Shown here piece after piece: positions 1-15,800 of a DNA stretch of 20,970 bases; the stretch's first letter is position 1; each line of letters starts with the position of its first letter. Source of the stretch: a virus; the IMG/VR virus record IMGVR_UViG_3300044547_000764, positions 1 to 20,970 of that record; one strand, given 5' to 3'. The translations under genes were made by a program, and so were the position numbers. The notes beneath the pieces are model-generated. The model was not told where the DNA came from. It made no database searches and saw only the letters and a program-made list of their open reading frames with translations.

Positions 1-264
1 ACAGCTTTCCACCAACCTATCAGTTTTTAAGAGCCGATAGGTAGAGCTCCGTTTTGTTCACTTCTATTTAAATGTTCCACGAGTGATGCGGAATGAACTA
101 AGCAGCGTATGCGTACTCAGAAGCCCCAATGAATTCCATCATAGAATCAAAGGTCATAGTTGACATTTCGTCAGTTATTGTTTTGTACAGATTTAAAGAC
201 ATCTAGCACTTCTGTCTACGTGTGGTACTACCATTCTCATTGCAATCAAGTCCATGGCATCCCC
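1..264 (-). ncRNA. ssrA: tmRNA (transfer-messenger RNA), 3' part cut by window edge
   Basis: tmRNA rescues stalled ribosomes and adds a degradation tag to the unfinished protein. Read on the minus strand, the RNA starts GGGGATG at 264, followed by CCATGGACTTGA, which fits the tmRNA 5' pattern GGGGNUGNNNUGG..U.GA. Three H-type pseudoknots can be drawn by eye. PK1 is TAGTAC/GTGCTA (225-230 with 204-209) plus ACAGA/TCTGT (211-215 with 187-191). The next is TTCCGC/GTGGAA (88-93 with 75-80) plus TCACT/AGTGA (82-86 with 58-62). The third is GGAGC/GCTCT (46-50 with 30-34) plus ACCTATC/GATAGGT (36-42 with 15-21). Between PK1 and the second pseudoknot is an open frame ending GCT GCT TAG (Ala-Ala-stop), as expected for a tag. 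The T-arm and acceptor 3' strand would lie beyond position 1. It sits 42 bases after the last tail gene, on the same strand. Alternative: another structured ncRNA, but tag plus ordered pseudoknots argue strongly for tmRNA. Confidence 0.85.
98..175 (-). other. tmRNA tag-encoding frame
   Basis: The frame ends at TAG (98-100). If resumption is at ACT (173-175), eleven bases after the PK1 3' strand and close to the spacing in E. coli, the tag is 25 residues: it begins TDEMSTMTF, is rich in Met, Phe and acidic residues, and ends GASEYAYAA. The start resembles the NDE of the E. coli tag, and the final Ala-Ala is the usual protease signal, though YAYAA replaces the common ALAA. The exact resume codon cannot be fixed from sequence; the frame stays open upstream to an ATG at 202. 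Confidence 0.65.
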
Positions 265-273
265 ATATAATAT

Positions 274-281
274 GTAAATAT
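274..281 (-). promoter_or_regulatory. putative promoter motif upstream of tmRNA
   Basis: The minus strand reads ATATTTAC, one base off the ATATTTAT element found before five other transcription units here. It lies about ten bases before the tmRNA 5' GGGG. No terminator is visible between the stop of the upstream CDS (307) and the RNA, so co-transcription from the tail operon with 5' processing is also possible. Confidence 0.4.
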
Positions 282-306
282 ACGAATAATAATTTAGATT
301 ACCAAA

Positions 307-666
307 TTATTTTTTAAATTGTAAAAGGTATGGTAAATAAAGTTGAATCGCTGGTAATACCTTAGCTGCTCTTTTTACCGATTTTAAATTTGCTTCTTTT
401 ATTTCTTCATCAGTACCAGACAATTTCCAATCCAATGCAACTACAATATAAAAGTTATTGTTTATAAATTCTTGATATCCCGTTTTTGATATCTCACGTA
501 CAGCCGAATTTTTATCATTTGATTTTTGTATAAAATATCTAGTAATATATCCAGTTGTATAATCTGTATCTATTGGAGATGGGACATATGATGTTATAGT
601 AGGAATTTGAAATTGATTTATTTTACTTCTATTAATTCTATTATATATTACATTATATATACTCAT
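307..666 (-). CDS. Small phage protein of unknown function, probably virion or baseplate associated
   Basis: This 119-residue protein is the last gene of the tail operon, with its ATG one base after the stop of the hub gene, so translational coupling is likely. The N-terminus is basic and polar. The body (about residues 30-119) has a PSPIDTDYTTGYITRYFIQK stretch, a VALDWKLSG strand, and a C-terminal segment with LPAIQLYLPYLLQF. The pattern of a short beta-rich body followed by an amphipathic end resembles small conserved proteins I recall from T4-like environmental phages, but I cannot name a family. There is no signal peptide, membrane helix or catalytic motif. A structural role is inferred only from position. 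There is no clear Shine-Dalgarno before the ATG. Confidence 0.75.
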   Translation of the reverse strand: MSIYNVIYNRINRSKINQFQIPTITSYVPSPIDTDYTTGYITRYFIQKSNDKNSAVREISKTGYQEFINNNFYIVVALDWKLSGTDEEIKEANLKSVKRAAKVLPAIQLYLPYLLQFKK

Positions 667-667
667 A

Positions 668-3238
668 TTATTGTATTTGTCTATATTCTCCTTTTACTTC
701 AGTAAACCAATTCATATTCTCAATAGTGTGTTCTACCTGTGTTATTTGAAACAATCCATATTTTGCGTATTTTGCAGGTATTCCAATTATATTAAACATA
801 TCACCTCGTCTCAATCCACTTGTTCCTAATATTTTAAAACTATATTTTATTGGCAATGGTTGTGATAATCTCTTATCAACTCCTCCGTTTTCATTTACTA
901 AATTATCTGTTGGTTTTTTTAAAAAGAAATTTTTATTTTTTATTTTATCAAAAAATGAAGTATCATTAAAACAATATATTATAAAATTCTTATTAAATTC
1001 ATCTTTAGCTGTAATACTACCATCTGTTAATGCTAATGGTGTATTTATGCTTGGATTTGGTACTACATCAAGTTTATCTAAATTTTTGGTAAGAGTTGTT
1101 TTTTGTAATTCTCCTGTTTCTTTTACCTTTGCGCTAATTTCCTTTTCTATTGCTTTGTATGCAGCCACAGATTCAGCTGATGCTGTACTTCCATCTTCAT
1201 TATAATATGCTGTTATTCCAGGAGAACCCACTCCAAACGATTCAGTTTTGGTAGTAATTTTTAAGTCTTCCTTTGCTTTTTTTAAGTCTTCTAGTGTTTT
1301 ATCTTCTTCAGGAGGAGGTGCACTAGCTGCATTTTCGGTAGTTGCCGGTCTGTCACTACCACCTGCTACTACTTCTTTTAAAAATAAATCTACACTTGCA
1401 TTAAAAAATCCACCAACATCGGTTATTGGTGTGTCAGGATTTGTTACTACATCTAATCTTCTAGAAACAATTTGATTAGTCATTTCACCCGGTATAGACA
1501 ATTCCAAATTTGATTCTAAAAATGTACAATTGGCACCATTGTGATAGAATGTACGAATTGGTTCTGCTGTTGATGGTTTTCCTATCCAATTTTCATCAAT
1601 AACTCCCAATCGTATAGTAGTTTTTGTACTTTCAAGTTGAGTTATTTTTATTGGATTTGTTATATTCATAGGATTTAGCATAGGAACTGAAAATGCGTTT
1701 ATTTCAATTTCTTTACTTATATTTCCATTTTCATCTTGCATTTCTACTATTTGAAAATTCCAATATGAATTAACTGCAGAAGACATTTCGTTTAAAATAT
1801 CTAAAAATATTTCTCTTATATTTTTATTTTTTTGTTCAATTTTATTTTTGAACATATCAAAATTTACATATAAGTTTTTTAAATACCCCCAATGTTCAGC
1901 CTCTTCACTATACCCTTTTACAATTTCAGAAGTTAATGCACTACTTTCAACAAATGGGACACCAAGTCCAATAAAGTTACTATCATATAACTCTTGTTGG
2001 CTTACATCATTTACATTTAAAAAATATTTACTAAATTCAGGTAAATTACCTGCTATTAAAAGTTTATCAGCTTTTGTTGAAAATATTTTTGGAAATGCAC
2101 CAATAACAGAATTTGAAATATCAATTCTTAAATCAATACTTTCGTTTCCCATTGTGTATGCTTCAATAACTCCAATTCTATTTAATATTGCTACAGCCAA
2201 TTCAAGTCTAATATATCTATTTGTTGAAAATAGCTTATCCTTTTCTAATGGAATATCACCGGCAACGGATTTTACATCAACTTCATCACTTTTCCAAAAT
2301 TTGTACCAGGCTGGTTTTGCAAATGAATTTACCGAATTACTAACTACTTTATCAAAATTTATAAAATCAAGCTCAGTTATCTTTACTTTACCATCCGTTA
2401 GTATATCTTTTACATTCTGGGTTTGTCTAAATGTTGGTAAATCATTGAACATTGCTTTAAATCTACGGTCTAATGCGGTTGCATCTTCATCTTCTGCTTC
2501 GCTTGATGGATATGGATATGGGCCTGTATTATTTGTTACTAAGTTAATATCTCCGTTACCATCTTGTTTTAATGGTAAATTATGCGATTGCATAAATGTA
2601 GGTAATGATGGAGACCCTCTTAAAGATACTTCTACATCATACGTCTCATCTGCATTATTAATATTACCGCCAACTATAAATCCTAAAAAAGAATCATAAT
2701 CACCATTTGATTTAATTCGTTTTTCATGTAATTTATTTTGGTTTAAATTAGAAGTAACACCATCGGATAATATTTTTTTTCTATCAATGATACCCCATGA
2801 TGCATTTGGAGTATTCCATCCAAATTCTATACAAAGAGTATAACCAGGCTCCATAAAATATTCTTGAATCAATTCTAATTGTTCTAATGTAAAACATTTT
2901 ATTTTTAAACTTACCTCTCTTGATATTTGGTCATGACCTTCTTTAACAGTCAAACCAGTTATAATTGGTCTTGGCCTTAATGCTCTACCAGCTTTAGTAG
3001 ATACTATTTTACCATTCCAATCACTTCCAACAGTTCCACTTGTATTTGAGTTTCCATAAACAGATGCTTCTCCATTTAATGAAAATATTGGATAATCGGG
3101 ATGAGATTCAAATATAAGCCCAGCATTTGCTCCAGAAATAACTCTCACCCAGCAATTCAATGTACTAGCTGCTACATTATTTCTATTCTTTATTTTGTAA
3201 GCGATATTTGCTTCTATGTTTGATAGCTTAGGCCACAT
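668..3238 (-). CDS. Baseplate hub protein (T4 gp27 / gpD-type)
   Basis: Hub proteins form the trimeric ring at the centre of the baseplate that joins the tube to the central spike. This 856-residue protein has an N-terminal half with the hub-like segment SLKIKCFTLEQLELIQEYF followed by a PGYTLCIEFGW strand (about 110-145). It ends (about 794-856) with GTSGLRRGDMF, FQITQVEHTIENMNW and TEVKGEYR, the pattern I associate with the last domain of contractile-tail hub proteins. It is much longer than T4 gp27 (about 390 residues). Part of the excess is a low-complexity acidic/proline linker at about 625-670 (APPPEEDKTLEDLKKAKED), which looks like an inter-domain hinge. There is no lysozyme-like domain, so this is not a gp5-type fusion. 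The start at 3238 follows the stop of the LysM-like gene by one base. Family call is from motif memory and gene order; exact T4 equivalence is uncertain. Confidence 0.7.
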   Translation of the reverse strand: MWPKLSNIEANIAYKIKNRNNVAASTLNCWVRVISGANAGLIFESHPDYPIFSLNGEASVYGNSNTSGTVGSDWNGKIVSTKAGRALRPRPIITGLTVKEGHDQISREVSLKIKCFTLEQLELIQEYFMEPGYTLCIEFGWNTPNASWGIIDRKKILSDGVTSNLNQNKLHEKRIKSNGDYDSFLGFIVGGNINNADETYDVEVSLRGSPSLPTFMQSHNLPLKQDGNGDINLVTNNTGPYPYPSSEAEDEDATALDRRFKAMFNDLPTFRQTQNVKDILTDGKVKITELDFINFDKVVSNSVNSFAKPAWYKFWKSDEVDVKSVAGDIPLEKDKLFSTNRYIRLELAVAILNRIGVIEAYTMGNESIDLRIDISNSVIGAFPKIFSTKADKLLIAGNLPEFSKYFLNVNDVSQQELYDSNFIGLGVPFVESSALTSEIVKGYSEEAEHWGYLKNLYVNFDMFKNKIEQKNKNIREIFLDILNEMSSAVNSYWNFQIVEMQDENGNISKEIEINAFSVPMLNPMNITNPIKITQLESTKTTIRLGVIDENWIGKPSTAEPIRTFYHNGANCTFLESNLELSIPGEMTNQIVSRRLDVVTNPDTPITDVGGFFNASVDLFLKEVVAGGSDRPATTENAASAPPPEEDKTLEDLKKAKEDLKITTKTESFGVGSPGITAYYNEDGSTASAESVAAYKAIEKEISAKVKETGELQKTTLTKNLDKLDVVPNPSINTPLALTDGSITAKDEFNKNFIIYCFNDTSFFDKIKNKNFFLKKPTDNLVNENGGVDKRLSQPLPIKYSFKILGTSGLRRGDMFNIIGIPAKYAKYGLFQITQVEHTIENMNWFTEVKGEYRQIQ

Positions 3239-3239
3239 A

Positions 3240-3530
3240 TTATCTATTAAAATTATTTATTATTTCTAAATAGTTTTGTGGTATTCTTAATATTGTCCCA
3301 TCCTCAAAACCAAATACAGCATTGTGTATATTATTTGCAGTTGCAATAATCCACCAAAGAGATGCATCTTCATAGAATTGATATGCAAGTGAATCTAATC
3401 TATCACCAGTTTCAGTTGCTACATATATATCATCATCTCTTAATGGAATATTAGGATATATTTTTGATTGATATACCTCTCTGCCATCAATTGTTTTTTT
3501 AGTTCTATTATTTTGATATCTACCTGTCAT
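3240..3530 (-). CDS. LysM-like baseplate protein (gp53 / tail protein X type)
   Basis: This 96-residue protein has a LysM-type fold signature: YVATETGDRLDSLAYQFYED, then LWWIIATANNI, then GTILRIPQ. Together these are the 'set off a structure, then residence in a groove, then IP' pattern of LysM. In contractile tails such small LysM proteins (T4 gp53, P2 gpX, Afp7) clamp the inner baseplate or link hub and wedge. T4 gp53 is about twice as long, so the match is to the LysM core only. The N-terminus is basic (RYQNNRTKKTIDGREVYQSK). It sits six bases after the upstream baseplate gene and one base before the hub gene, consistent with baseplate assembly. A peptidoglycan-binding role is less likely, because it lacks an attached enzymatic domain. 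Confidence 0.72.
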   Translation of the reverse strand: MTGRYQNNRTKKTIDGREVYQSKIYPNIPLRDDDIYVATETGDRLDSLAYQFYEDASLWWIIATANNIHNAVFGFEDGTILRIPQNYLEIINNFNR

Positions 3531-3536
3531 ATTCTA

Positions 3537-5543
3537 TTAATGTTTTATTCCTGCTGCTGTTTCTAAAAATAATTGACTAACTTGTTTACCATCTAAAATA
3601 TATTCTTTTTTACCAGTGGCAGTTTTTGTATCAACTTTAGTATTTGTCTGCTTAACAGGATTTTCTTTTTTAGCACCATCTTTAGCTTTTGGTTGAGATG
3701 CCGCTGTATTTGTTTTTGGATTACCTCCACTATCTATGTTCTTTTTTGCATCATCTGCTTTCTTACCATATGCATATAAATTACTTCCTGGATTAAATAT
3801 AGTTATATCCTTTCCATTGGAATCTTTTCCTTTTGTTTCACTACCATGAGATGCCGCAGATTCTACAAATTTTATAGATATATCAACATCTATAATCATT
3901 GGTAATTTATAATTTGTTAATTCCTTTTGTCCAATAGCTCCGTTTGCAGAATCACCAGGTATTGCATTAAGTCCGGTTTCCCAAGAATAATTATCATCTA
4001 CAGTATATGTTAATGATTCTATAAATCCTTCTTTTTTGTGATATAAATCTCCTAAAGTAAATTTTATAAATGGAGGTACTACATATTTGGCAGGACTATT
4101 ATATCCTTGTGGATATACTAATGATGTTAAGAATTTAATTCTTTGCCATGCTGCTATATGTTCACCAGCTGATAATGAATATATTTTAAATTTAAATGTT
4201 GCTGTTCTTTCTATTCCACTGTATGTGTAGTAATTGAATGGGTTTCCTACAAATTTGCCTGGCTCCCAAGTAGGTCTAAGTGTTTCACTAAATCCACTTA
4301 TTGTTGCTCTAAACATAACAAGCGATTTCTTTGCAACAGAATAAAATTTTAATGGTATAAAATCTATATTTTTTTCAAATAACGTTTGCTTAGCTTCATC
4401 AGCTTCACTAAAAGCTACTAAATTATTTAATGCATCCGCATAGTTACCAACCCTTGCTTTTATAACATTATCGTCAGTATCTTTATATAATTCGTTATAT
4501 GAAAATCCTCGTTTAGTACCTAATGAATTTTCCACTACATAGTCACCATACTCATTTTGAGTACCAATTACTCCATTTTTACCGGTTGAATATGGTGTAG
4601 CGGAATAATCATTTATATATTTTATTGCGGTTGGCTTTTTTGGTAAAATTGTAGTACTCAACGGAGTAAAATCTTTTTGTGCTTCCCCAACACCAACTTG
4701 CTCTAAATAGTGTTTTAAATAATCAGTTTCTGTGTCTACATAAAATTTAGCTGAGTATGGAGTATTTGAACTGTATTTATAACGAGTAAAATTAAATAGC
4801 TCAGTACTATTTTTTACATATGCTTTATTGCCTTGCTTATTTTTTCTAAAAACAATCAATTTACCATCTTCATTAACGCCTGTTGCCGTACCTCCAGTTG
4901 CCAATCCTATTGTTGATTCTCCAAATAATCCTTTTTTGATTTTATCTTTAACCATTTGAGTTGCCCCACCAATTAATTGATTACCCATTTGATTTGGAGT
5001 ACCTTTTGCAGCTTGATTTAAAAATTTTCCAAGTAAGCTACCTGCTGCATCTTTTTTTGCTTTGCTAAAATATTCCGAATATCCAAACGGAGTGGTGTAC
5101 TTAAACGTATCGGATTCTAATTTTAAATTACTTGGTATTAAACTGCTTGGTAATCCTAATTTGCTTGATACAAAACTTTTAATCTTATTTGCAAATGCAC
5201 TAAGAACACCACCAGCACCAGCTCCGTTTGCAACCGATTTCATTGTATCCAAATCCGTTGTAGTACGAGTTTTTAATCTAATAATATCAGTACCATATAT
5301 AATCGGAGATGCTACATTTTTTAATATTCGTAATCCAGTAATTCCTTCCTCAAATCTAGTTTCTCTACCTCTTGTAGATAAATTTCTTCTTGCTATTTGT
5401 TGTAATGGAAATGCCACTGCGTTCATCAATGGATTTGCAGAAGTAGGTTTATTCTCTTTGCTATTTTGAATATCATACTTTTGTTGAGCAGTTTGATTAT
5501 TGCTTAACTTTTTAGATTTAAATAATTCTTGTAATGATGGCAT
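3537..5543 (-). CDS. Baseplate / tail-tube initiator-like protein (gp48/gp54 position)
   Basis: This 668-residue protein comes directly after the tape measure, where T4 encodes the tube-initiating proteins gp48 and gp54. Residues about 394-563 are beta-rich and tube-like: FRATISGFSETLRPTWEPGK, then YYTYSGIERTATFKFKIYSL, a helix with AAWQRIKFLTSLVYPQ, then PFIKFTLGDLY, GFIESLTYTVDDNYSWE and LPMIIDVDISIKFVES. This strand pattern resembles the tail-tube fold used by tube initiators. The N-terminal 390 residues are less distinctive (basic start, glycine-rich stretch near 105-115). Residues about 565-645 form a Lys/Thr/Asn-rich linker, followed by a short C-terminal helix. It is about twice the size of gp48 or gp54, so it may combine roles. 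The role is inferred from position and fold pattern. The gap to the tape-measure stop is 12 bases and there is no obvious Shine-Dalgarno. Confidence 0.6.
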   Translation of the reverse strand: MPSLQELFKSKKLSNNQTAQQKYDIQNSKENKPTSANPLMNAVAFPLQQIARRNLSTRGRETRFEEGITGLRILKNVASPIIYGTDIIRLKTRTTTDLDTMKSVANGAGAGGVLSAFANKIKSFVSSKLGLPSSLIPSNLKLESDTFKYTTPFGYSEYFSKAKKDAAGSLLGKFLNQAAKGTPNQMGNQLIGGATQMVKDKIKKGLFGESTIGLATGGTATGVNEDGKLIVFRKNKQGNKAYVKNSTELFNFTRYKYSSNTPYSAKFYVDTETDYLKHYLEQVGVGEAQKDFTPLSTTILPKKPTAIKYINDYSATPYSTGKNGVIGTQNEYGDYVVENSLGTKRGFSYNELYKDTDDNVIKARVGNYADALNNLVAFSEADEAKQTLFEKNIDFIPLKFYSVAKKSLVMFRATISGFSETLRPTWEPGKFVGNPFNYYTYSGIERTATFKFKIYSLSAGEHIAAWQRIKFLTSLVYPQGYNSPAKYVVPPFIKFTLGDLYHKKEGFIESLTYTVDDNYSWETGLNAIPGDSANGAIGQKELTNYKLPMIIDVDISIKFVESAASHGSETKGKDSNGKDITIFNPGSNLYAYGKKADDAKKNIDSGGNPKTNTAASQPKAKDGAKKENPVKQTNTKVDTKTATGKKEYILDGKQVSQLFLETAAGIKH

Positions 5544-5555
5544 GTTATTCTATGT

Positions 5556-8105
5556 TTACGCTAAATTAAAACTATTTCTACTTGTCTTTTCAACTTGCTT
5601 AGTAATTCCAGATGTAACTTTAGAACCATCCATATAAACAGATATCTTACCTGCATTTAAATCTGCTCTAAGTGCTTTTATTTCATTAATCATTGAGTTT
5701 AGTGGTGCTGATAATGCTGCTAAATTCATTTGTACACCACCTCCACCAGTACCACCAGATAATGCAGCTGCTGCACCAGGCGCTGCTACTAAATCATCAT
5801 TTGCAGATAATTCAAATAAACCACCCTCTTTAGTTGATACTACAGTTTTACCATCTGCCGGTGACATTACATCTCCCGCCTTACTTAAAGATGATGCTAA
5901 ATATCCAAGTATACCACCAATTGCCAATAAACCTAATGGTCCCATCCAGGCATTTCCAGCAAAAATAGATGCAATTGCACTTTGTTCTTTTATACCTGCC
6001 TCTGTAGCAGCTGCTCCTATTCTAGCGGGTGCACCTGCTAATTCTACACCAGATGCAACTACTCCAGCTTCTTTTGCAGCAGTTTTACTTACCTCAGCAC
6101 CTACTGCGGTTGTATTTAATGCTGCTTGACTTTCTGATAATAATAATTGTTCATATTGAGCTTTCAATATTGCACTTTGCATCGTTGCCTCCAACGCTTT
6201 TGCAGCTGCTGCTTTTTGTACGGATTGATAATAAAAATATGCACCAACTCCAAGAGCACCCATAAGTCCGTAAAGTACAGCAGAGTTTTGTGCTATAAAT
6301 TCAAATACATTTGCCAATAGTTGCATTGGTTTTAATAATAAACCACCAATTTGAGTACCAATTGCTTTCAATCCATTACTCATTTGGTCTTGAGATGATT
6401 GTATTTGTGTATTTAATGCAAATTCCTCTGTCTTTTGCTTTAATTGTTCTTCATTTAATTGAGTTATATCCAATCCTGCGTTTATAGCAGCTGTAGCTTT
6501 AGCTTTTTCATCATCACTAAGATTTGCTAATTTTTCTCTAATTGATAATTGCTTATTAATTTCTTCAACAGTCATATTAGATGCCTTAGCTAAAGCCTCT
6601 TGAGTGAATACACTTTGTTTTGTGAAATCACCACTTCTCTGAATTTGTTTTAATACTTCGTCTTGCGCTTCAACCATTTTACCTGCTGCGGCTAAACCTC
6701 TTGCTTGTGATAAATTAAATTGTCCACCAACAAAAGTTGCTGCTACTAATTCATCTCCAATATTTTCTTCAAAATTTAATAAGCCTTTAGCAGTCTTTTC
6801 AACATCTTCAAGTTCTTGTCCTAATTGATGTGCTTTTATTACTTGTTGTTTAAGTAAATTAACATCACCATGAAAATACTTTGATGTAATTCCAGCACTT
6901 TTTGAAATATCCTCCAATACTTCTTTAGGAGAAACACCAGCCATCTCTGCCATACTAGCTACTTGTAATCCTACACTAGCTGCCGTTTCTTGTGATAATC
7001 CAGATACTTGTTCAAATACCGATTGCACTTTAGCTGCCTCACTTTCGGATATACCTAAATTAGTTGTCATTATTGATAACGCTGCTACAGTACTTTCACT
7101 AAATTGAGCTATATCACTAAATTCATTCTTAAGTTGATTTGTTATTTCATATACCGTAGCAGCATGTACTCCCATCTTTCCATACTCTACTGCAATTACA
7201 TGGGCTGAATGTTCTATTTCATATGTTTGCTTTTTTGTATATCCAGTATCCTCTCTAAATTTGCCCGCTGCTTTATCTAATTCTAAAAAATCTTCAACTG
7301 CAAGTCCTATTGCCGTAAATAATAATAATATAGGAGAACCTGCTATAAGTGCACCCATTAATTTTTTTGCTGCATGTCCTGCAGATGTTAATGATTCTGG
7401 TAATTCTCCGGCTAAATCACTTGTTTCTTCTTCAATTTCCTTTAAACGTTCTAATTGATGTTCTTTCTTTTCTGCTAATTCAAATGATTTTTCTGCTGCT
7501 ATTCTTTCTTCTCCAGTTAAATCTTTTATTTTTGCTAACAATTGTACTCGTTCCATATCCACTTTCTTTATACCAAACATACTATTCAATTGTTCAATAT
7601 AATCAGAATTTACTTGTAATTGTTCTTCACTTACCTTACCCATTGTTTCAAGACGAATATCACTTGCTTTCTTTTCTTCTTCGGATAAATTTATTTCATT
7701 TTTTTTACGTTCTACCATTAATGCATTAAGTGTACCATATACTCCTTTTTGTTGAGTATTTATTTGTAAAGCTTTTTGGAGTTGAGGACTCATTTTTGAA
7801 ATGGATGTTGCATACTCATCAATCATATCATTAAGTTCCTTTTGATGAGCAGTTTCTTTTTCTTTTAATGCATTAATCTTAGCTTGTCTTTTTTCATTTT
7901 GGTCTAATGCTTTTTGTCTTTTTTTAGCTTCTTCTTCAGTTAATCCTAAAAGTATTTTAGTACTAGCTATTTTGTTTTCCATTTCTTGAGCTTCCCTACC
8001 ACTAAGAACTGCGGCAGCTTTTATTTGCTCATTTAAGCGAGTTTGAAGTTCTCCTTGCTGTTTAAGCAATTCGTTTAATTCTCTACTATTTTTGGAATCT
8101 GCCAT
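5556..8105 (-). CDS. Tail tape measure protein
   Basis: The tape measure sets tail length and is ejected through the tube at infection. This 849-residue protein has a long charged, coiled-coil-like N-terminal part (about 1-235, rich in Lys, Glu, Gln), a hydrophobic segment at about 249-270 (GALIAGSPILLLFTAIGLAV), a helical middle, and two more membrane-like segments at about 610-626 and 720-737. It ends with a KISVYMDGSKVTSGI motif close to the VYLDGKKVG-type ending common in tape measures. The Ala/Gly-rich, low-complexity C-terminal third also fits. It follows the gp26-like chaperone region and an 80-residue gene and precedes the tube-initiator-like gene, the expected order. The ATG at 8105 lies 19 bases after the upstream stop, with only a weak AAAGAA ahead of it. 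T4 gp29 is about 590 residues; if the usual length rule holds, this tail would be longer than that of T4. Confidence 0.88.
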   Translation of the reverse strand: MADSKNSRELNELLKQQGELQTRLNEQIKAAAVLSGREAQEMENKIASTKILLGLTEEEAKKRQKALDQNEKRQAKINALKEKETAHQKELNDMIDEYATSISKMSPQLQKALQINTQQKGVYGTLNALMVERKKNEINLSEEEKKASDIRLETMGKVSEEQLQVNSDYIEQLNSMFGIKKVDMERVQLLAKIKDLTGEERIAAEKSFELAEKKEHQLERLKEIEEETSDLAGELPESLTSAGHAAKKLMGALIAGSPILLLFTAIGLAVEDFLELDKAAGKFREDTGYTKKQTYEIEHSAHVIAVEYGKMGVHAATVYEITNQLKNEFSDIAQFSESTVAALSIMTTNLGISESEAAKVQSVFEQVSGLSQETAASVGLQVASMAEMAGVSPKEVLEDISKSAGITSKYFHGDVNLLKQQVIKAHQLGQELEDVEKTAKGLLNFEENIGDELVAATFVGGQFNLSQARGLAAAGKMVEAQDEVLKQIQRSGDFTKQSVFTQEALAKASNMTVEEINKQLSIREKLANLSDDEKAKATAAINAGLDITQLNEEQLKQKTEEFALNTQIQSSQDQMSNGLKAIGTQIGGLLLKPMQLLANVFEFIAQNSAVLYGLMGALGVGAYFYYQSVQKAAAAKALEATMQSAILKAQYEQLLLSESQAALNTTAVGAEVSKTAAKEAGVVASGVELAGAPARIGAAATEAGIKEQSAIASIFAGNAWMGPLGLLAIGGILGYLASSLSKAGDVMSPADGKTVVSTKEGGLFELSANDDLVAAPGAAAALSGGTGGGGVQMNLAALSAPLNSMINEIKALRADLNAGKISVYMDGSKVTSGITKQVEKTSRNSFNLA

Positions 8106-8124
8106 TAATTATTCTTTAAATGGA

Positions 8125-8367
8125 TTATATATTTTTTGGTACTAATCCAATTTTAGCTAATTTATCATAAATTTCAGGATTTCTACTTTTGATATTATGT
8201 AATATAGGGCCAGTAGATGCATCAATTTTATCATAATCCGCTTGTAATTTTTTTAATATAGGGTCATTATCTACTATTTTTTGAATTTCATATGGAGTTT
8301 TTTTCTTTTTAAAAAATAATTCCCAAAATTCATTAATATTTCCCTCTGATAATTTGTATTTTTTCAT
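8125..8367 (-). CDS. Small helical protein preceding tape measure, function unknown
   Basis: This 80-residue, lysine-rich protein starts the tape-measure operon. It is mostly helical by composition: an N-terminal part with WELFFKKKKTPYEIQKIVDN, then PILKKLQADYDKI, and a C-terminal RNPEIYDKLAKIGLVPK. There are no membrane segments or metal motifs. The spacing (19 bases to the tape measure) and a promoter-like motif 27 bases upstream suggest a tape-measure partner or small assembly factor, but no family is recognised. It could be a minor virion protein. The start codon is the first ATG after the intergenic hairpin; no Shine-Dalgarno is seen. Confidence 0.72.
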   Translation of the reverse strand: MKKYKLSEGNINEFWELFFKKKKTPYEIQKIVDNDPILKKLQADYDKIDASTGPILHNIKSRNPEIYDKLAKIGLVPKNI

Positions 8368-8392
8368 ATTGAATTTGTTTACTTATACGATA

Positions 8393-8400
8393 ATAAATAT
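8393..8400 (-). promoter_or_regulatory. putative late promoter motif ATATTTAT
   Basis: The minus strand reads ATATTTAT about 26 bases before the ATG of the 80-residue gene, immediately downstream of a terminator hairpin. The same octamer occurs before the tube, sheath and 131-residue genes. This placement after a terminator and before an operon is what a promoter would need. Confidence 0.5.
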
Positions 8401-8411
8401 CCTATAAACGA

Positions 8412-8454
8412 AAAAGTTAGGATTTGGAGAAATTATCTCTTTATCCTAACTTTT
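8412..8454 (-). terminator. intrinsic terminator, possibly bidirectional
   Basis: A 12-bp perfect inverted repeat (AAAAGTTAGGAT at 8412-8423 with ATCCTAACTTTT at 8443-8454) carries A-rich and T-rich flanks, giving a T run after the stem on the minus strand. A small inner GAGA/TCTC pair lies in the loop. It separates the gp26-like region from the tape-measure operon. The upstream arm is inside the coding region of the 52-codon ORF. Confidence 0.75.
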
Positions 8455-8591
8455 GATTGTCTTTGTGATGATTTTATTTGTTCATTCTCTTTTTTCTTAG
8501 AATCCACCAGTTTATTGTAGTAAAATAACCTTAATCGGGTTGGCATTTTGTATAGTTCCATCATAGTAAATCCATTACCATAATTAACCAT
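8433..8591 (-). CDS. Small ORF, candidate frameshift extension of the gp26-like protein (tail chaperone-type)
   Basis: A 52-residue frame runs from ATG (8589-8591) to TAA (8433-8435). It reads MVNYGNGFTMMELYKMP, then TRLRLFYYNKLVD, then a strongly basic tail (SKKKENEQIK and on to KVRIKR). The ELY.MP.RLR.FYY..L segment recalls small phage proteins such as P2 GpE (MSL.EL..WR..A), which are made as frameshift extensions of tail chaperones. Its frame is open 16 codons upstream of the ATG, up to the T7 run inside the 3' end of the gp26-like gene, so it may be translated as a fusion. No Shine-Dalgarno precedes the ATG. It sits between tube and tape measure, as tail chaperone extensions do. It could also be independently started. 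The coding status is judged from composition and position. Confidence 0.6.
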   Translation of the reverse strand: MVNYGNGFTMMELYKMPTRLRLFYYNKLVDSKKKENEQIKSSQRQSKVRIKR

Positions 8592-8619
8592 ATCAAAAAT
8601 CTGCGAATGTAGATTTATA

Positions 8620-9378
8620 CTATGATTGGTAGGAAGGCCAAAAAAACCCTACTCCTAATGAAATAGGCGCCTCCTCCACCTCACCATCTTCATGAGTATA
8701 TTCAAATTTCATATTCATATCAGGTGACATACTCTTAATATGCTCTCTTAATGCTCTACTATCTTTAGCTAACATATTGTTTACAAATTTGTTAATAGTT
8801 GCTAAATCATTCTTACCATCAACTGATTTAATCATATATCTCAATCTAGTACTAATCTCAGATGATACATCTTTATTTATTTTTTTAAGAGCCTCTACAT
8901 CTTTATCAATTAATCTTTCATCACCATGTGTTAATATCTTAAATGTTAATTTAGTACCACTTGGTGTTGTATAATCAAATTCATTTTTGTTTTTGAATAT
9001 TGAAAAATCAACCTCTTTAGTTTGAATTGTAGATAAATCAAAATTTACATTAATAGTTTCACCTTTTTTAGATGAAAAGAATTGTAAATTATATTCTGCA
9101 CCATATCCTAATAATCTAGTTGCTAAAAGGATAGCGTTTTTATCACCAATAATAATATCATCCGATTTTATACCATCTACTATAATAGATTCAAATAATG
9201 TATCAATTGCTAATCCTTTTTTAATAAGATTAGATGAAGAAAGAATATCTTCTTCCTTTGCAGTCATTAATTTAATTCTAATTTGCCCAGATGATAATGG
9301 ATGTTCTGGTGGATATACTTTACCTTGAGATGGAAGGTCTAATACTTCCGTTGGAAAATCATATACTTTGTCTGTCAT
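8620..9378 (-). CDS. T4 gp26-type baseplate / tail assembly protein
   Basis: This 252-residue protein opens with VLDLPSQGKVYPPEHPLSSG, then IRIKLMTAKEEDILSSSNLIKKG, then IIIGDKNAILLATRLLGYGAEY. I associate this pattern with the T4 gp26-like 'T4 baseplate protein' family (Pfam PF12322) found in T4-like phages. It ends with GVGFFWPSYQS; FFWP endings are typical in my memory of the family. T4 gp26 is 208 residues and acts in baseplate hub assembly. Here the gene lies between tail tube and tape measure, the position used by the tail assembly chaperone in many phages. The helical middle contains DVEALKKINKDVSSEIS. A terminator precedes it (after the tube gene) and a motif ATATTTAT-like element lies 29 bases upstream. 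The 3' end carries a T7 run that could allow frameshifting into the next ORF. Confidence 0.75.
   Translation of the reverse strand: MTDKVYDFPTEVLDLPSQGKVYPPEHPLSSGQIRIKLMTAKEEDILSSSNLIKKGLAIDTLFESIIVDGIKSDDIIIGDKNAILLATRLLGYGAEYNLQFFSSKKGETINVNFDLSTIQTKEVDFSIFKNKNEFDYTTPSGTKLTFKILTHGDERLIDKDVEALKKINKDVSSEISTRLRYMIKSVDGKNDLATINKFVNNMLAKDSRALREHIKSMSPDMNMKFEYTHEDGEVEEAPISLGVGFFWPSYQS
8640..8646 (-). other. candidate programmed frameshift site (T7 run)
   Basis: Near the end of the gp26-like gene the minus strand reads GGG TTT TTT TGG. Skipping one T (+1) or slipping back two (-2) leaves the 0 frame and enters a frame that is closed by a TAG at 8649-8651 just upstream but then stays open to 8433. 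The 0 frame stops at 8620-8622. The shared window is therefore only 29 bases and contains the homopolymer. The fused product would be about 314 residues. A -1 slip would terminate after about ten residues. A homopolymer sequencing error is an alternative. Confidence 0.4.
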
Positions 9379-9405
9379 AACTTTACTTGTTTTAAGTTTG
9401 TATAT

Positions 9406-9413
9406 ATAAATAC
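9406..9413 (-). promoter_or_regulatory. putative late promoter motif (one mismatch)
   Basis: The minus strand reads GTATTTAT, one base off ATATTTAT, lying 28 bases before the ATG of the gp26-like gene and downstream of the strong terminator at 9446-9465. Confidence 0.45.
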
Positions 9414-9445
9414 ATAGTTTTTAAAAAATTAGAAAGCACAAAAAA

Positions 9446-9465
9446 GGGGATATTTTGGTATCCCC
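9446..9465 (-). terminator. intrinsic terminator after tail tube gene
   Basis: Minus-strand GGGGATA, loop CCAAAA, TATCCCC forms a perfect 7-bp G/C-rich stem followed by six T residues. It lies 23 bases past the tube stop codon. This is the clearest terminator in the window and would insulate the abundant tube transcript from the gp26-like gene. Confidence 0.9.
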
Positions 9466-9488
9466 TGATTGTTTTTATTATTTTTAGA

Positions 9489-9977
9489 TTAGTATTCTAA
9501 GATAGCGTAATCATAAGATAATGTTAAAGTGATAGTTGCTACTTCGTTTGAAGTGAAATCTAAATCACCAAAGTTAGCTTGAAGAATGAAAGCTCCTTTA
9601 AGTTTCCATTGTTCTATTTTATCGCCGACTGGTCCCAACATATAGATATCGATATCCTTTTTGTAGAAATCAGCGTATCCATCTCTACCAGTAATAGATT
9701 CATGTGATAATCTCACCCACTCCATTACCGCTTGTGCTCCAGATGGAACGATTGGGTCATAAAGAGTGATTTCTAAATCTTGCCACTCACCTTTACCTTT
9801 CAACTGTCTTTTAACGTTGATATGGTCTAAAGTTACTTTCTCAAAGTTAATTTGAGGTCTGTTACCAGCTTTTACTAAATATGATTGAATACCATCAATT
9901 TCCATGATGTATCTGTTCTTCATTTTAGGTTCGAAGTTCGTATAGAACATCTTATCAAATTCTAATATTTCTGCCAT
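9489..9977 (-). CDS. Tail tube protein (T4 gp19-like)
   Basis: The tail tube protein stacks as hexamers to form the inner tube through which DNA passes. This 162-residue protein matches the gp19 family in length and pattern. The N-terminus is MAEILEFDKMFYTNFEPKMK, followed by NRYIMEIDGIQSYLVKAGNRP, then VKRQLKGKGEWQDLEITLYD, PSGAQAVMEWVRLSHES and a final FTSNEVATITLTLSYDYAILEY. The basic VKRQLKGKGEW loop and the C-terminal beta-strand are typical. It directly follows the sheath gene (52-base gap), the classical sheath-tube order. Start choice is supported by AAAAGGAA ending six bases before the ATG. It likely has its own promoter (10002-10009) and terminator (9446-9465), which fits a protein needed in high copy. 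Confidence 0.92.
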   Translation of the reverse strand: MAEILEFDKMFYTNFEPKMKNRYIMEIDGIQSYLVKAGNRPQINFEKVTLDHINVKRQLKGKGEWQDLEITLYDPIVPSGAQAVMEWVRLSHESITGRDGYADFYKKDIDIYMLGPVGDKIEQWKLKGAFILQANFGDLDFTSNEVATITLTLSYDYAILEY

Positions 9978-9982
9978 TTTTG

Positions 9983-9990
9983 TTCCTTTT
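9983..9990 (-). promoter_or_regulatory. ribosome binding site of tail tube gene
   Basis: Minus-strand AAAAGGAA lies five bases before the ATG at 9975-9977. It is one of only two convincing Shine-Dalgarno sequences in the window; the other serves the sheath gene. Confidence 0.7.
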
Positions 9991-10001
9991 ATTTTATATT
10001 A

Positions 10002-10009
10002 ATAAATAT
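10002..10009 (-). promoter_or_regulatory. putative late promoter motif ATATTTAT
   Basis: An exact ATATTTAT on the minus strand lies 25 bases before the tube ATG, between sheath stop and tube start. No terminator is visible in this gap, so tube may be read both from here and by readthrough from the sheath. Confidence 0.5.
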
Positions 10010-10029
10010 CTAATTCCTTTATTTTCAAA

Positions 10030-12306
10030 TTATGCGTTGAAAGATGCTCCCGTTGGTAAGATGTTGAAATCAATTACGATGAATTCAGCCGTCTTTGCCG
10101 GTTGTAAGAACACTTGTCCTGCTAATACATTTCTATCGATTACATCCGGTGTGTTGTTAGTTTCATCCATTACAACTTTGAATGCGTATAAACCTTGTCT
10201 TTGTTGGATAGCCTCTAAATAAGGGTTTACAGTGTTTAAGAAACGAGTTCTAGTTGTAGATGTATTTTGTTCGAACACTAAATAACGAGATGTTGAAGCG
10301 ATGAACTTCTTCATTGTGATAAGTAATCTTCTTACATTGATTCTATCTAATGCTGAAGCCTTATCTTGCAATGTCTTCTGTCCGAATGCTACAATACCTT
10401 GTCCAGGGAATGCTGCGATTGGGTTTACTTTGTTCTCATATAGAGTGTCTCTCTCTGCATGTGTTAATCTATTCAATACACTAACTGCTCCAGTGATACC
10501 ACCTCTATTCAAACCAGCCGGTGCGAACCACTCTGCCGCCAATCTATCATTACTTGCGTAAACCGCTGGTAATAATACGGATGGAGGAACGATTGTTAAT
10601 TTGTTTGTATTTGTATCAATTGTTTTAATCCAAGGATAGTAAGTACCAACATAATTTGAATCTACTCCTTGTGCTTTTTCAGTTACATCTGCAATTGTTG
10701 CATCATAATCAGAAAATTCAGCTATGTAGAATGCATCTTGTCTATCTTCAACCATATCAATAACTGCTTGAACAGCTGCTGGATGGCTTTGATAGTTTAG
10801 ACCCGGTGTTACCACCATATTGATATCCCACTCATCAGGATTAGAAATTGCGTTAATTGCTTTTGTATATGCTGCTGAACCAGATGCTGCTGAAGTTGAA
10901 CAATTGAATCCTTGCTGATTTGCATTGTTCCAATTTGCATCACCAGCTTTAGCTATTGGTGTGATTGGGTTAGTACCATCAAAACCTTGTTGGAATGCTA
11001 ATACAAATTGTCTCTTAACCATATCAACTGCTTTTGAACCAGTCATTTGGTATGATAATTGAGAATCAAATCCGAAAACAACGTTTGAACCTGATACTGC
11101 TTCATTAGGAATTGGTTTTAAGTATTGAGCGTTATCAATTGATACACCCTCACCTTCAAAATCAAATCCACTATAATAGATTGGAGAACCAGCTGTGTTA
11201 GCTGCTGAACCTGTTTGATATACAACTGCAGGTACTTTAGTTACATCACCAGCTGCTGTTTCAATTGGATTTATATATGCGGCATGTCCGAATGGTGCTG
11301 CTGATATAGGATATGAACCAGCTATTGCTACGTCAACTCTTACATATTTTGATTTGTTAGCGTAATCACCATTTTGTGTGATTTTACCAGCAGCATCAAT
11401 TGTAATATAAGAATCACCCATTCTTCTAGCTATAAAGTTTGGAGAAGCAGGGTCTAAGTTTACATTGTTAAATGTTTCAACAACACTCTTTCTCTTATCA
11501 ATATCAGAATAACTTCTAATAGTTACAGTAAAAGTTGAATAATCAGTACCGCCATCTTCACCAGCTGCCTTTACATTAGAAATACCAACTTTAAATTTAG
11601 TATTATAATTTGCACCATCACCTAAAGTTACAAATTTGAAAAGGTCATATCTTACACCACTAATCAATTGAGAGGTAACCATTGGAGTTTGTGCAGGTTG
11701 TGCATCAAATGTATAAACCTGTGTAGGTAATACAATACTAGATATACTAGCGGTTGGTAAACTATTTGCTGCATTTTCAAAGTAAACATAAGTGTATGCT
11801 TCTTTTGGTCCAAGTGGAGATTCACCAAATACATCTGATAAATCATTTGTAGCTGATGTTACTGTTGATGCTGATACATTCGTTGCACTACCGGTTGCTC
11901 CAGTAATTACAAATGAACCAGATGTACCAGTTGCACTTCCTCCAGTAAAACCATAGTTTTGGAATCCGTTTGAAGTTGAGTATAATACACCAGCTATTTT
12001 ACCGCCAGCAACTATTGCCAATGGTGCTGCTTGGTAGTATCCTCCGATACCTGCAACTCTTACGATAGTAGCTTGTCCAGCTTCTCTTAAATAATTTTGT
12101 ACTGCGTATTCAGTATAATATGTTCCGTCTACTTTACCGAACTTTTCCTCAAATTCTGATTGAGTTGTTACGATTGTAGGTACAAATGCAGGTCCTTCTT
12201 TTAGAGGTCCTATAAATGCTGCTCCGATTTCACCGATTCCTTGAGAAAGGAATGATAAATCGTTTTCTCTAGTAAATACACCAGGGGATACAATTCTTTC
12301 TGCCAT
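10030..12306 (-). CDS. Tail sheath protein (T4 gp18-like)
   Basis: The sheath contracts to drive the tube through the host envelope. I place the start at ATG 12304-12306, giving MAERIVSPGVFTREND and 758 residues, because GGAGA stands eight bases upstream and the N-terminus then matches sheath proteins. An upstream in-frame ATG at 12357 would add 17 unlikely residues and run over the untranslated leader. Residues 1-90 include IGEIGAAFIGPLKEGPAF and the AVQNYLREAGQATIVRVAG segment. Residues about 100-420 form a Ser/Thr/Gly-rich, beta-rich region, probably the exposed variable insertion. The C-terminal part (about 593-758) is highly typical: GLNRGGITGAVSVLNRLTHA, then NPIAAFPGQGIVAFGQKTL, DRINVRRLLITMKKFI, and NTVNPYLEAIQQRQGLYAFK, matching the sheath C-terminal domain that binds tube and neighbouring sheath subunits. 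T4 gp18 is 659 residues. Confidence 0.93.
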   Translation of the reverse strand: MAERIVSPGVFTRENDLSFLSQGIGEIGAAFIGPLKEGPAFVPTIVTTQSEFEEKFGKVDGTYYTEYAVQNYLREAGQATIVRVAGIGGYYQAAPLAIVAGGKIAGVLYSTSNGFQNYGFTGGSATGTSGSFVITGATGSATNVSASTVTSATNDLSDVFGESPLGPKEAYTYVYFENAANSLPTASISSIVLPTQVYTFDAQPAQTPMVTSQLISGVRYDLFKFVTLGDGANYNTKFKVGISNVKAAGEDGGTDYSTFTVTIRSYSDIDKRKSVVETFNNVNLDPASPNFIARRMGDSYITIDAAGKITQNGDYANKSKYVRVDVAIAGSYPISAAPFGHAAYINPIETAAGDVTKVPAVVYQTGSAANTAGSPIYYSGFDFEGEGVSIDNAQYLKPIPNEAVSGSNVVFGFDSQLSYQMTGSKAVDMVKRQFVLAFQQGFDGTNPITPIAKAGDANWNNANQQGFNCSTSAASGSAAYTKAINAISNPDEWDINMVVTPGLNYQSHPAAVQAVIDMVEDRQDAFYIAEFSDYDATIADVTEKAQGVDSNYVGTYYPWIKTIDTNTNKLTIVPPSVLLPAVYASNDRLAAEWFAPAGLNRGGITGAVSVLNRLTHAERDTLYENKVNPIAAFPGQGIVAFGQKTLQDKASALDRINVRRLLITMKKFIASTSRYLVFEQNTSTTRTRFLNTVNPYLEAIQQRQGLYAFKVVMDETNNTPDVIDRNVLAGQVFLQPAKTAEFIVIDFNILPTGASFNA

Positions 12307-12312
12307 GTTATT

Positions 12313-12317
12313 TCTCC
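12313..12317 (-). promoter_or_regulatory. ribosome binding site deciding the sheath start
   Basis: Minus-strand GGAGA followed by AATAAC and ATG (12304-12306). It supports the MAERIV start over the in-frame ATG 51 bases upstream, which has no such site. Confidence 0.75.
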
Positions 12318-12367
12318 GATTATTATGTTTTAAAATGCTAATATTGAGTATGTACAATATTACCTAT

Positions 12368-12871: not shown

Positions 12872-15800
12872 TTAGTTTTTATTTTTCAACTCTCTAATCT
12901 CAGCTCTTGCCTCATCCAACTCAGCTTTTAGTTCTTTAACTGCCTCAACTAATAATGCTGTAATCTTATCGTATTTGATAGTTTTATACATTGGAGACAT
13001 TTCAGGAACAAAATCAACCGCATCCATTGCGTTTTTAGAATCTTGGTGAGTAAGTTGAGTTTGGTATTCCGTTGTTAATAATGGTTCAACTGCCTCAACC
13101 TCTTGTGCAATCAATCCAATATCTCTAGTTCCAGCACGCTTACTATTAATATTTACTTTTTCATCATTCCAATCATAAGTAACTCCTCTAAGCTTTTGGA
13201 TTTTTTCTAAAGCGTTAGGAATTGTTTCTATATTTTCTTTAAGTCTAATATCAGAATAATATGCAATTACGTTACCACTTGCTCTCAAATCACCACTAAT
13301 ATACAATCCCCAATCAGTAGTATATGCTCTCCAACCAGCTGCGTATGCTAAATAAACGTTACCATTACAATATGCTAAGAAAGACCAACCATATGAAGGA
13401 TGCCAGAATCCACAAGGTGCACCAGCACCAGCAGTATGTATCATCAATGCCATACTACCATCAACTCTCCATCCAGAATATCCATTATTAGAACCACCCA
13501 TATACCAAGATGTATAATCTCCAGTATAACGGTCTAAGTATTTAGAACTATCGTATCTATTATACATAACACCAGAATACATTCTATTATAGAAATATGC
13601 AATTGGATTACCATTCTCACCACTCATGTAAGTGAATGTGTTATCACCAGTTGAGTTATCCATCAATCTCAAATACGAATAAGTGTTATTGTTATTCGCA
13701 TCAACTCTCAATGTAATATCATTAAATGAGTTTAATGAAACTGAATCGGTGAATGAACCATTATAATCCGTAGATGCATATCCGTGATTTGGATAAGTAT
13801 CATATGTTGCGTTCCAGTCAAAGGATACATATGCTAATCTACTAATATATGAACTATACGAACCATATGTTCCCCAAATAGAATATTCACTACCTACTCT
13901 GAATGAACCTTGTGCTCTAATATATGCATCACAATAAATGTTCTTACCATTATATGTTCTTAACCATGTAGAATCCTGCATAAACCAACCACCACCATAT
14001 GATTCATTATACCAACCAGTAGCATTATAACTTCTAAACCAGTTATAAGAATAGATTGTGTTGGCCATTGTCAATGTATTCATATACGATGAACCATTCA
14101 TATCAATATAATATCCACCATTATCTCTATCCACAATATATGGAACAAATAGAGTATTACTAATTCTTATATTAGTATCACCTCTACCAATACTCATAAT
14201 TTCATTACTATTAACTCCGGGAGAGTCTGCAAAAAATCTAGTACCACCATACGCAGGGTTTCCACCTAATTCCAAACCGGTATGCCATCCCAACGAAAGT
14301 CTTGTATGGGTTGAATTTCCATTATTATATGGAGATTTAACATACATAAAATAGTATGGTTGGTTATCACCTCTTTGTCCAGAACTAATACCAGTCTGAG
14401 AGCCAACTGCTGATGGGTCAGTTGTACTATTTGCTAAATCAATATGTCTTGTATTACCAGTAGCACTTCCAATTCTGAATGCAAATGTTCCACCATAATC
14501 ATAGTAGTAATTTGAGTTTACAGAACTTCGTGAGATTAAAGTACTACTATTAGTAACGCCATTTGTATAGAAATCACCATTGTTTGTTAATGAACCTACG
14601 TTTGTACCAGTTGATGCATTACGGAATACCCATGCTCTACCAGATGTATCCATTACAAACCAAGTACCATATTGGTCCGATTGGTAACCATGCGTACCAA
14701 ATCCAATGTTTGCTCCGTATTTAAACATTATCATTGAAGTAGTAGCGTTACCAGTACTCCATAATGTTATAGAACCATAGTAAGATGAGTTATTACCATT
14801 AGCGTTATACCAACCAGAACCATTTACCGTAAGATTGTTTATACTTCCTACATCACTACCACCAGCACTAATACCACCATACAACCAGTTATAACCAGCT
14901 GAGTAAATACCAGATGGATGCCAAGATGCTGCCCCAGTACCACCTACGTTTCCATTACCTTGTAATGAATATGCTCTAACTGCATTTAGGTTAGAAGTAC
15001 CATCAGTAATTAAATAATATGCACCATTTGAAGTACCATAATAAGTTGGTGCCTGCATACTATCTGCTGAATATTGTCTACCATATGTCCAAAATGAACC
15101 ATTATAGTGCGATATTATTGCATTTACTTTACTATTAGTATTATATCCAACCCAACCAGGCATTGCCGGTCCAGATGATTGTCCAACAAATACAGTTTCT
15201 GCACCGACCATAGTGTATGCACCATAACTTTGTCCACTTTGTGAACCTTTGTTGAAATAAAATATACCCCAGCCTCTAGCATTTTCTTGGAATAACCAGT
15301 TGTTATATTCAGAACCATCGGATACTAAGAATGTACCACCATCATTATTCTGTCTAAAGTAACTTTCAGCTTGAATTACATTACCAATTGATGTACCATT
15401 ACCATCCCACTTATAATATGCGTTATCATAATCATAGAATATAGGTGAACGAGTATCAACATATGAATATAATCTTCTATCCGAATCAATTCTAACCGCA
15501 TGTTGTCCATTTATTGAAGTAAAATCTGATGTGTTATTAACATAGAAATCTAAGTAGCCGTTTGCATTGGTCCTACCTGCTACTATATAGTTTGCACCAT
15601 TATTACCTAATTGTAAACCATACCAGTTAAGAGATGCATGATATATGTTTGAGTTATCAGTATATCTTGCTCTAAAATGATATCCACTATTTTTTGTAAT
15701 TAAATCGTTATCAGCAACATTACCTCTTGCCGATACAGTTTGTAAAGTTTCAGAAGTTGCTAAACCAGTAATGTTTGTATTTATTGAGTTTTTTGGAACA

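Follow-up and report, generated by a model that had tools for sequence, protein, structure and literature searches.

tmRNA is an RNA that releases ribosomes which have stalled and adds a tag to the incomplete protein. Its genes have been described in several groups of phages. They are known in mycobacteriophages and phage G (PMC4131195), in huge phages (PMC7162821), and in Cellulophaga phage Calle (PMC8776804), and one survey has them in 402 of 18,146 phage genomes (PMC9004378). A TLD-only phage RNA is also on record, mycobacteriophage DS6A being the sole example named in the cited literature. The gene described here lies at one end of a virus contig of 20,970 bases, the whole of which is called the window. 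It shares with bacterial tmRNA (ssrA, RF00023), especially that of Bacteroidota, the G3-U70 acceptor, a T-arm, the want of an anticodon arm, P2, the pseudoknots PK1-PK4, a TAACT-like sequence before the tag and an encoded CCA, and most members of the phage lineage also share the tag end (D/N)YA-x-AA. The differences are that the gene is phage-borne and that the tag has 20-25 residues with a conserved block, whereas tags of the likely host phylum have 8-10. Like the tmRNAs of mycobacteriophages, Bacillus phage G, Calle, and Melnitz, it is encoded by a tailed phage, but it forms a unit of its own, with a tail operon on one side and polA on the other and no tRNA in the window, and it is one-piece whereas that of Melnitz is two-piece. 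The DS6A RNA is likewise phage-encoded and tmRNA-derived; unlike it, the present RNA conserves the tag and all pseudoknots.

As phage tmRNAs are already known, what looks new is this lineage, by its tag. A tblastn search of 50,697 deposited phage records found no tag of the lineage, which is weak evidence of absence given the short queries, and BLASTN of the RNA against deposited phages gave T-arm/acceptor matches only and no relatives. Long tags are not unique to the lineage, since in the 484-kb phage LR756508 the tag of the full tmRNA is read as 36 residues. Alongside it, that phage has a 112-nt RNA resembling a TLD-only tmRNA (L369:305-416; LR756508.1 414804-414915; RF00023 58.2 bits), with G3-U70, a T-arm, and a folding z of -2.7. 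In mycobacteriophage SirSheldon, a region without any annotated feature (L376; MW713383.1 55802-56204) scores 98.4 bits with RF00023 and contains a frame ending AFVDADYAVAA, close to the AFVGADYAVAA of the lineage. Furthermore, a 116-kb phage contig (L012:1216-2843) carries a GOLLD RNA (281.5 bits), several tRNAs, and the lineage tmRNA side by side.

The gene at the record end and its structure

The minus strand of the window, read from 264 to 1 and starting GGGGATGCCATGGACTTGATTG, carries a one-piece tmRNA gene, of which the 5' two thirds are present. RNA positions (p) are numbered as 265 minus the window position. The record ends at position 1, and therefore the 3' third of the gene cannot be within it; because of the same truncation, ARAGORN and Rfam gave no match reaching the cut-off on the window alone. 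The relatives supply what is missing. The first 22 bases of the RNA have exact copies in 40 other IMG/VR virus contigs, full tmRNAs are called by ARAGORN in many full-length relatives, and RF00023 scores in these reach 70.9-95.2 bits against a cut-off of 47, so that the score above threshold sought by the initial annotation is obtained in the relatives.

The closest relative, L015 (record G012), is identical to the window at 956 of 957 bases upstream of the tmRNA and at 262 of 264 inside it, both differences being synonymous in the tag. It goes on for 122 bases past the window end to complete a 386-base tmRNA, and these bases contain the strand that completes P2, then AGGGG-TTCGATT-CCCCT as the T-arm, and finally CATCTCC-ACCA, the acceptor strand, which forms the G3-U70 pair and in which CCA is encoded. 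The T-arm and complementary acceptor strand expected within 150 bases beyond position 1 are thus at hand in L015. Near-identical and full-length relatives thereby support the original proposal of a phage-encoded tmRNA adjoining tail and baseplate genes, and every element on which it drew is present: the GGGGATG 5' end, a pseudoknot, a tag frame ending Ala-Ala-stop, and two H-type pseudoknots.

The two tag differences from the window are found in L035 as well, and therefore the bases beyond about 125 could derive from a co-occurring phage; the base choice at these positions may reflect genuine variation or a decision of the assembler, the tag being unchanged. Many contigs, the window included, end inside the tmRNA gene at shared points. 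In L002-L041, the contig ends fall at tmRNA positions 100-125 and 264-270. Since the window has only part of the gene, at a point where the assembly is tangled, the 3' end of this copy is a deduction from relatives. With contigs ending inside the gene, annotation of metagenomic contigs will consequently miss many such tmRNAs.

The secondary structure was assessed on 25 distinct full-length sequences with hand-placed helices, in which 91.6% of cells are paired. Cells changed on both sides number 82, compared with 24.8 +/- 4.2 in shuffles and 8-25 when the partner strands are shifted by 1-3 columns. Support from covariation extends to the acceptor, T-arm, P2, and PK1-PK4, and is weaker for PK4. 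The acceptor shows compensatory changes from A5-U68 to G5-C68, its window partner (CATCTCC) lying beyond the record end as does that of P2 (CGTGTG), and the alanine identity pair G3-U70 is invariant (25/25). The T-arm is paired throughout the 25 relatives and has compensatory changes too. C-G to G-C swaps affect PK1 in 9 of the 25 sequences, UA to CG double changes affect PK2 in 8, and six of the seven pairs in the second helix of PK3 are changed on both sides, PK3 itself being missing or replaced in some relatives. PK4, whose remainder lies beyond the record end, has five double-changed cells in relatives. The RF00023 alignment spans positions 1-374, with a D-loop lacking an anticodon arm and a long P2. 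All testable defining features are thus found in relatives, and the gene is classified as a tmRNA. A two-piece (permuted) form is ruled out, as L015 and other relatives have the 5' and 3' acceptor strands in the usual order, and the class of TLD-only decoys does not apply to an RNA with tag and pseudoknots present. Longer tmRNAs of 421-435 bases also occur (L032:169-603, L086:4550-4970, L069:140-567); the PK3 region of L032 and L086 holds a hairpin, GGTGTGATTCGAACACACC, resembling a tRNA T-arm from the opposite strand.

Table 1. Positions in the window of the tmRNA gene, its elements, and the neighbouring genes
Feature	Window position	Strand	RNA position	Basis
tmRNA, 5' two thirds	1..264	-	1-264 of 386	L015 match; RF00023 85.5 bits in G012 (cut-off 47)
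5' acceptor strand GGGGATG	258..264	-	1-7	100% paired in 25 relatives
P2 5' strand CACACG	219..224	-		98.7% of cells paired, 25 relatives
PK1, AGAC/GTCT + GTGC/GTAC	185..217	-	48-80	97% of cells paired
Tag frame, 24 codons + TAG, DEMSTMTFDSMMEFIGASEYAYAA*	98..172	-	93-167	ARAGORN on full relatives; pN/pS
PK2, H-type, TTCCGC/GTGGAA + TCACT/AGTGA	58..93	-	172-207	covariation
PK3, H-type, GAGC/GCTC + ACCTATC/GATAGGT	15..49	-	216-250	covariation
PK4 5' strands, TGGT + first bases of GCTGTA	1..14	-	251-264	93.9% paired in relatives
Promoter-like TTTGGTA-N15-CGTATATTTAC, directly 5' of tmRNA, after 119-aa gene	274..306	-		motif search
119-aa protein, end of tail operon, directly upstream of tmRNA	307..666	-		homologue search
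T4-like tail operon	668..12357	-		PHROGs and Pfam matches
856-aa protein, tail operon	within 668..12357	-		PHROGs/Pfam
gp25-like baseplate wedge	3240-3530	-		PHROGs/Pfam
Baseplate hub	8620-9378	-		PHROGs/Pfam
Tail tube	9489-9977	-		PHROGs/Pfam
Tail sheath	10030-12357	-		PHROGs/Pfam

The tag and its counterparts in the host phylum

Tags of 20-25 residues of the DEMSTMTFDDLMAFVGADYALAA type are present in well over 100 virus contigs, the loci having been collected with a tag-start pattern (at least 119 matches) and a TLD pattern. Among the matches listed, the main class is DEMSTMTF-[DEN][DS][LVM]M-x-F[VI]GADYA[VL]AA, the form in the window being DEMSTMTFDSMMEFIGASEYAYAA. A second class, DVELSTWTF[DE]D[AV]MAFVGADYAVAA, was found without constraining the tag. 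With codons fixed by the search pattern left out, pN/pS is 0.23 in the tag frame versus 1.2 and 1.7 in the other frames, and it is 0.22 for codons 8-16, inside the extra block. It is therefore supported that the tag evolves as a protein, including the conserved inserted block of about 15 residues, MSTMTF-[DE][DS]-[LM]-M-x-F-[VI]-GA. The protease signal that ends a tmRNA tag is usually a hydrophobic residue followed by AA; the C-terminus reads AYAA in the window, and nearly all members end in AYAA, AVAA, or ALAA. An exception is L120, whose tag (about 4155-4222) keeps DEMSTMTFDDLMAFVGADY and ends GADYE-stop, not ADYAVAA or ADYALAA; a scan for further contigs with such a tag end returned none besides L120.

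From the style of the promoter, the tmRNA, and the relationship to phage immuto, we infer that the host belongs to Bacteroidota. The likely host phylum was sampled as 248 genomes reached through a genome of Ignavibacteria, which we take to be a class within Bacteroidota, following GTDB. A tmRNA match was obtained in 247 of the 248, and therefore the phage RNA is unlikely to serve as a substitute for a missing host copy. In 69 of 70 sampled genomes the tags called by ARAGORN have 8-10 residues (the remaining one was read as 19), GENNYALAA, DNNYSYRLAA, and GEYNYALAA being the commonest, so the phage tag is more than twice as long as those of the probable host phylum. The sequences before the resume codon are alike, CAATAACT in the phage and AAATAACT in the host. 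Moreover, a host example (AAATAACT-GGC-GAA-AAT-AAT-TAC-GCT-TTA-GCT-GCG) and a phage example (CAATAACT-GAC-GAA-[block]-GAC-TAC-GCT-TTA-GCA-GCC) align at both ends, and the phage tag therefore resembles a host-like tag into which a block of about 15 residues has been inserted, a statement about the alignment and not a proven history. BLASTN against the sampled bacterial tmRNAs gave alignments at the two ends alone, namely the 5' end and the 3' end with T-arm and acceptor. The exact 5' end of the RNA had no match in the genome_contigs collection (84,980 species), and the T-arm/acceptor pattern matched mostly Bacillota there, indicating no host.

Genomic setting and history of the gene

The source is a T4-like myophage related to Flavobacterium phage immuto. 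Its sheath shares 46-47% identity with the sheath of Microcystis phage Mel-JY01 and with that of immuto (Immutovirus, vB_FspM_immuto). Beyond the tail operon, the window encodes a 2646-aa tail fibre (12872-20812). It contains long collagen-like repeats, and close to the C-terminus there is a Peptidase_S74 (endosialidase chaperone) domain; the opposite-strand ORFs there are probably by-products of the repeats. The promoter-like motif upstream of the tmRNA, which we take to resemble the Bacteroidota TTTG/TAnnTTTG promoter, is the sole match in the window, with 0 expected in shuffles. A general search of the window for TTTG-N-TAnnTTTG was not above chance, and a sigma-70 scan gave nothing useful. 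In relatives, the tmRNA is followed on its 3' side by a terminator-like hairpin-T8, as seen in L039, and then by another promoter-like sequence. Of 168 relative loci, 99 have a homologue of the 119-aa protein on the upstream side in the same orientation; the other 69 have no such homologue nearby, some merely because the DNA is short.

The next gene in relatives encodes a polA-type DNA polymerase, a homologue of which was found downstream at 51 of the 65 loci that could be tested, the commonest distance being 55-61 bases. The order of tail operon and polA is shared by immuto and Mel-JY01, but there one follows the other directly, and these genomes lack the tmRNA gene: none lies between tail operon and polA and none scored above the cut-off genome-wide. 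Only six deposited records have this type of polymerase, from these phages and one huge phage. The tmRNA has the look of an RNA unit that was inserted at a single site, the direction of change (gain or loss) being presumptive. Its earlier placement at the end of a tail operon thus stands in so far as it adjoins that operon; as a separate unit with its own promoter-like sequence and, in relatives, its own terminator-like hairpin and polA beyond, it is not simply the last part of it.

The history of the RNA disagrees with that of the gene beside it. Across 66 loci, tmRNA differences and divergence of the adjacent 119-aa protein are uncorrelated (Spearman -0.04). For instance, 119-aa proteins that are 93-98% identical can accompany tmRNAs with about 100 differing positions, while 119-aa proteins less than 50% identical can adjoin tmRNAs without any difference. 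AU tests rejected congruence in 7 of 7 groupings (p <= 1.5e-4), these having been picked after the trees were seen. The discordance implies that the tmRNA gene has apparently been exchanged between related phages. The conservation of the RNA is in part due to strong purifying selection, which does not account for the discordance. As contigs break at shared points inside the gene, chimeric assembly is a real concern for the exchange, though it leaves the gene's identity unaffected: where the flanks of identical tmRNAs differ, the contigs might be chimeras joined at shared sequence, and the pairs L003/L023 and L010/L014 have one flank in common and the other different. Against this, separate datasets show the same junctions from left flank through tmRNA to right flank (L018, L025, L026, and L030; L029 and L031), and between these two sets 1 of 386 tmRNA bases is different, compared with 20-31% in both flanks (about 69% and 79% identical). 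We therefore consider chimeras an unlikely source of the pattern, though one to be taken seriously.

Proposed function and competing readings

The gene, its structure, the coding constraint on its tag, its spread, and its discordance with the adjacent gene are documented above; expression, alanine charging, ribosome rescue, and any role of the block we infer from sequence. It is very probable that the RNA is a tmRNA of a T4-like myophage, with Bacteroidota the probable host, which would rescue ribosomes with a modified tag. It would be made from its own promoter and terminator, charged with alanine through G3-U70, and bound by host SmpB and EF-Tu. SmpB and SspB were not found in 18 related virus records, mostly fragments, and therefore the phage RNA presumably uses the SmpB of the host. 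Ribosomes that stall on truncated mRNAs in infected cells would take up the charged RNA and be freed by the addition of a 24-residue tag instead of the 8-10 residues of the host. The end of the tag (AYAA, or AVAA/ALAA in relatives) should still act as a protease signal, and the block of about 15 residues would be a phage-specific addition, most likely altering how tagged chains are handled.

Three readings without a rescue function are less likely than a ribosome-rescuing tmRNA. The RNA could be a decoy that titrates SmpB and blocks host trans-translation in the manner of the DS6A type, given that the TLD-only form inhibits endogenous tmRNA (PMC11915505, PMC4131195) and that, with no SmpB in the related phage records, the RNA and the host's tmRNA must be competitors for that protein. 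A decoy could do without a tag, yet here selection acts on the tag frame at the protein level and all pseudoknots are retained, which makes such a role improbable. Still less credible is a functionless remnant of host ssrA, left by imprecise excision of a prophage integrated there. ssrA is a common integration site and an origin of this kind has been proposed for other phage tmRNAs (PMC9004378), but the gene is intact in many T4-like phage lineages with compensatory changes kept, has its own promoter-like and terminator sequences, and combines a 5' end absent from the 84,980 species of genome_contigs with a tag unlike host tags. A chance assembly of hairpins, to which the silence of ARAGORN and Rfam on the window itself might point, is refuted by the complete same-phage relative L015 together with covariation, and its probability is negligible.

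As an extension of the ribosome-rescue reading, it is conceivable, though doubtful, that trans-translation is re-programmed, with the block as a targeting element for stalled chains that acts independently of the terminal ALAA. The partner chosen by the block may then be some adaptor or phage factor, or a protease that is not ClpXP. Were this true, L120 would represent a tag of that kind that has lost its degradation signal. Phage tmRNAs have long been catalogued, and this lineage gives a specific handle on their purpose: a selected long tag that stands one block apart from host tags, a variant found in nature that lacks the degradation signal, and the apparent exchange of the RNA gene among related phages.
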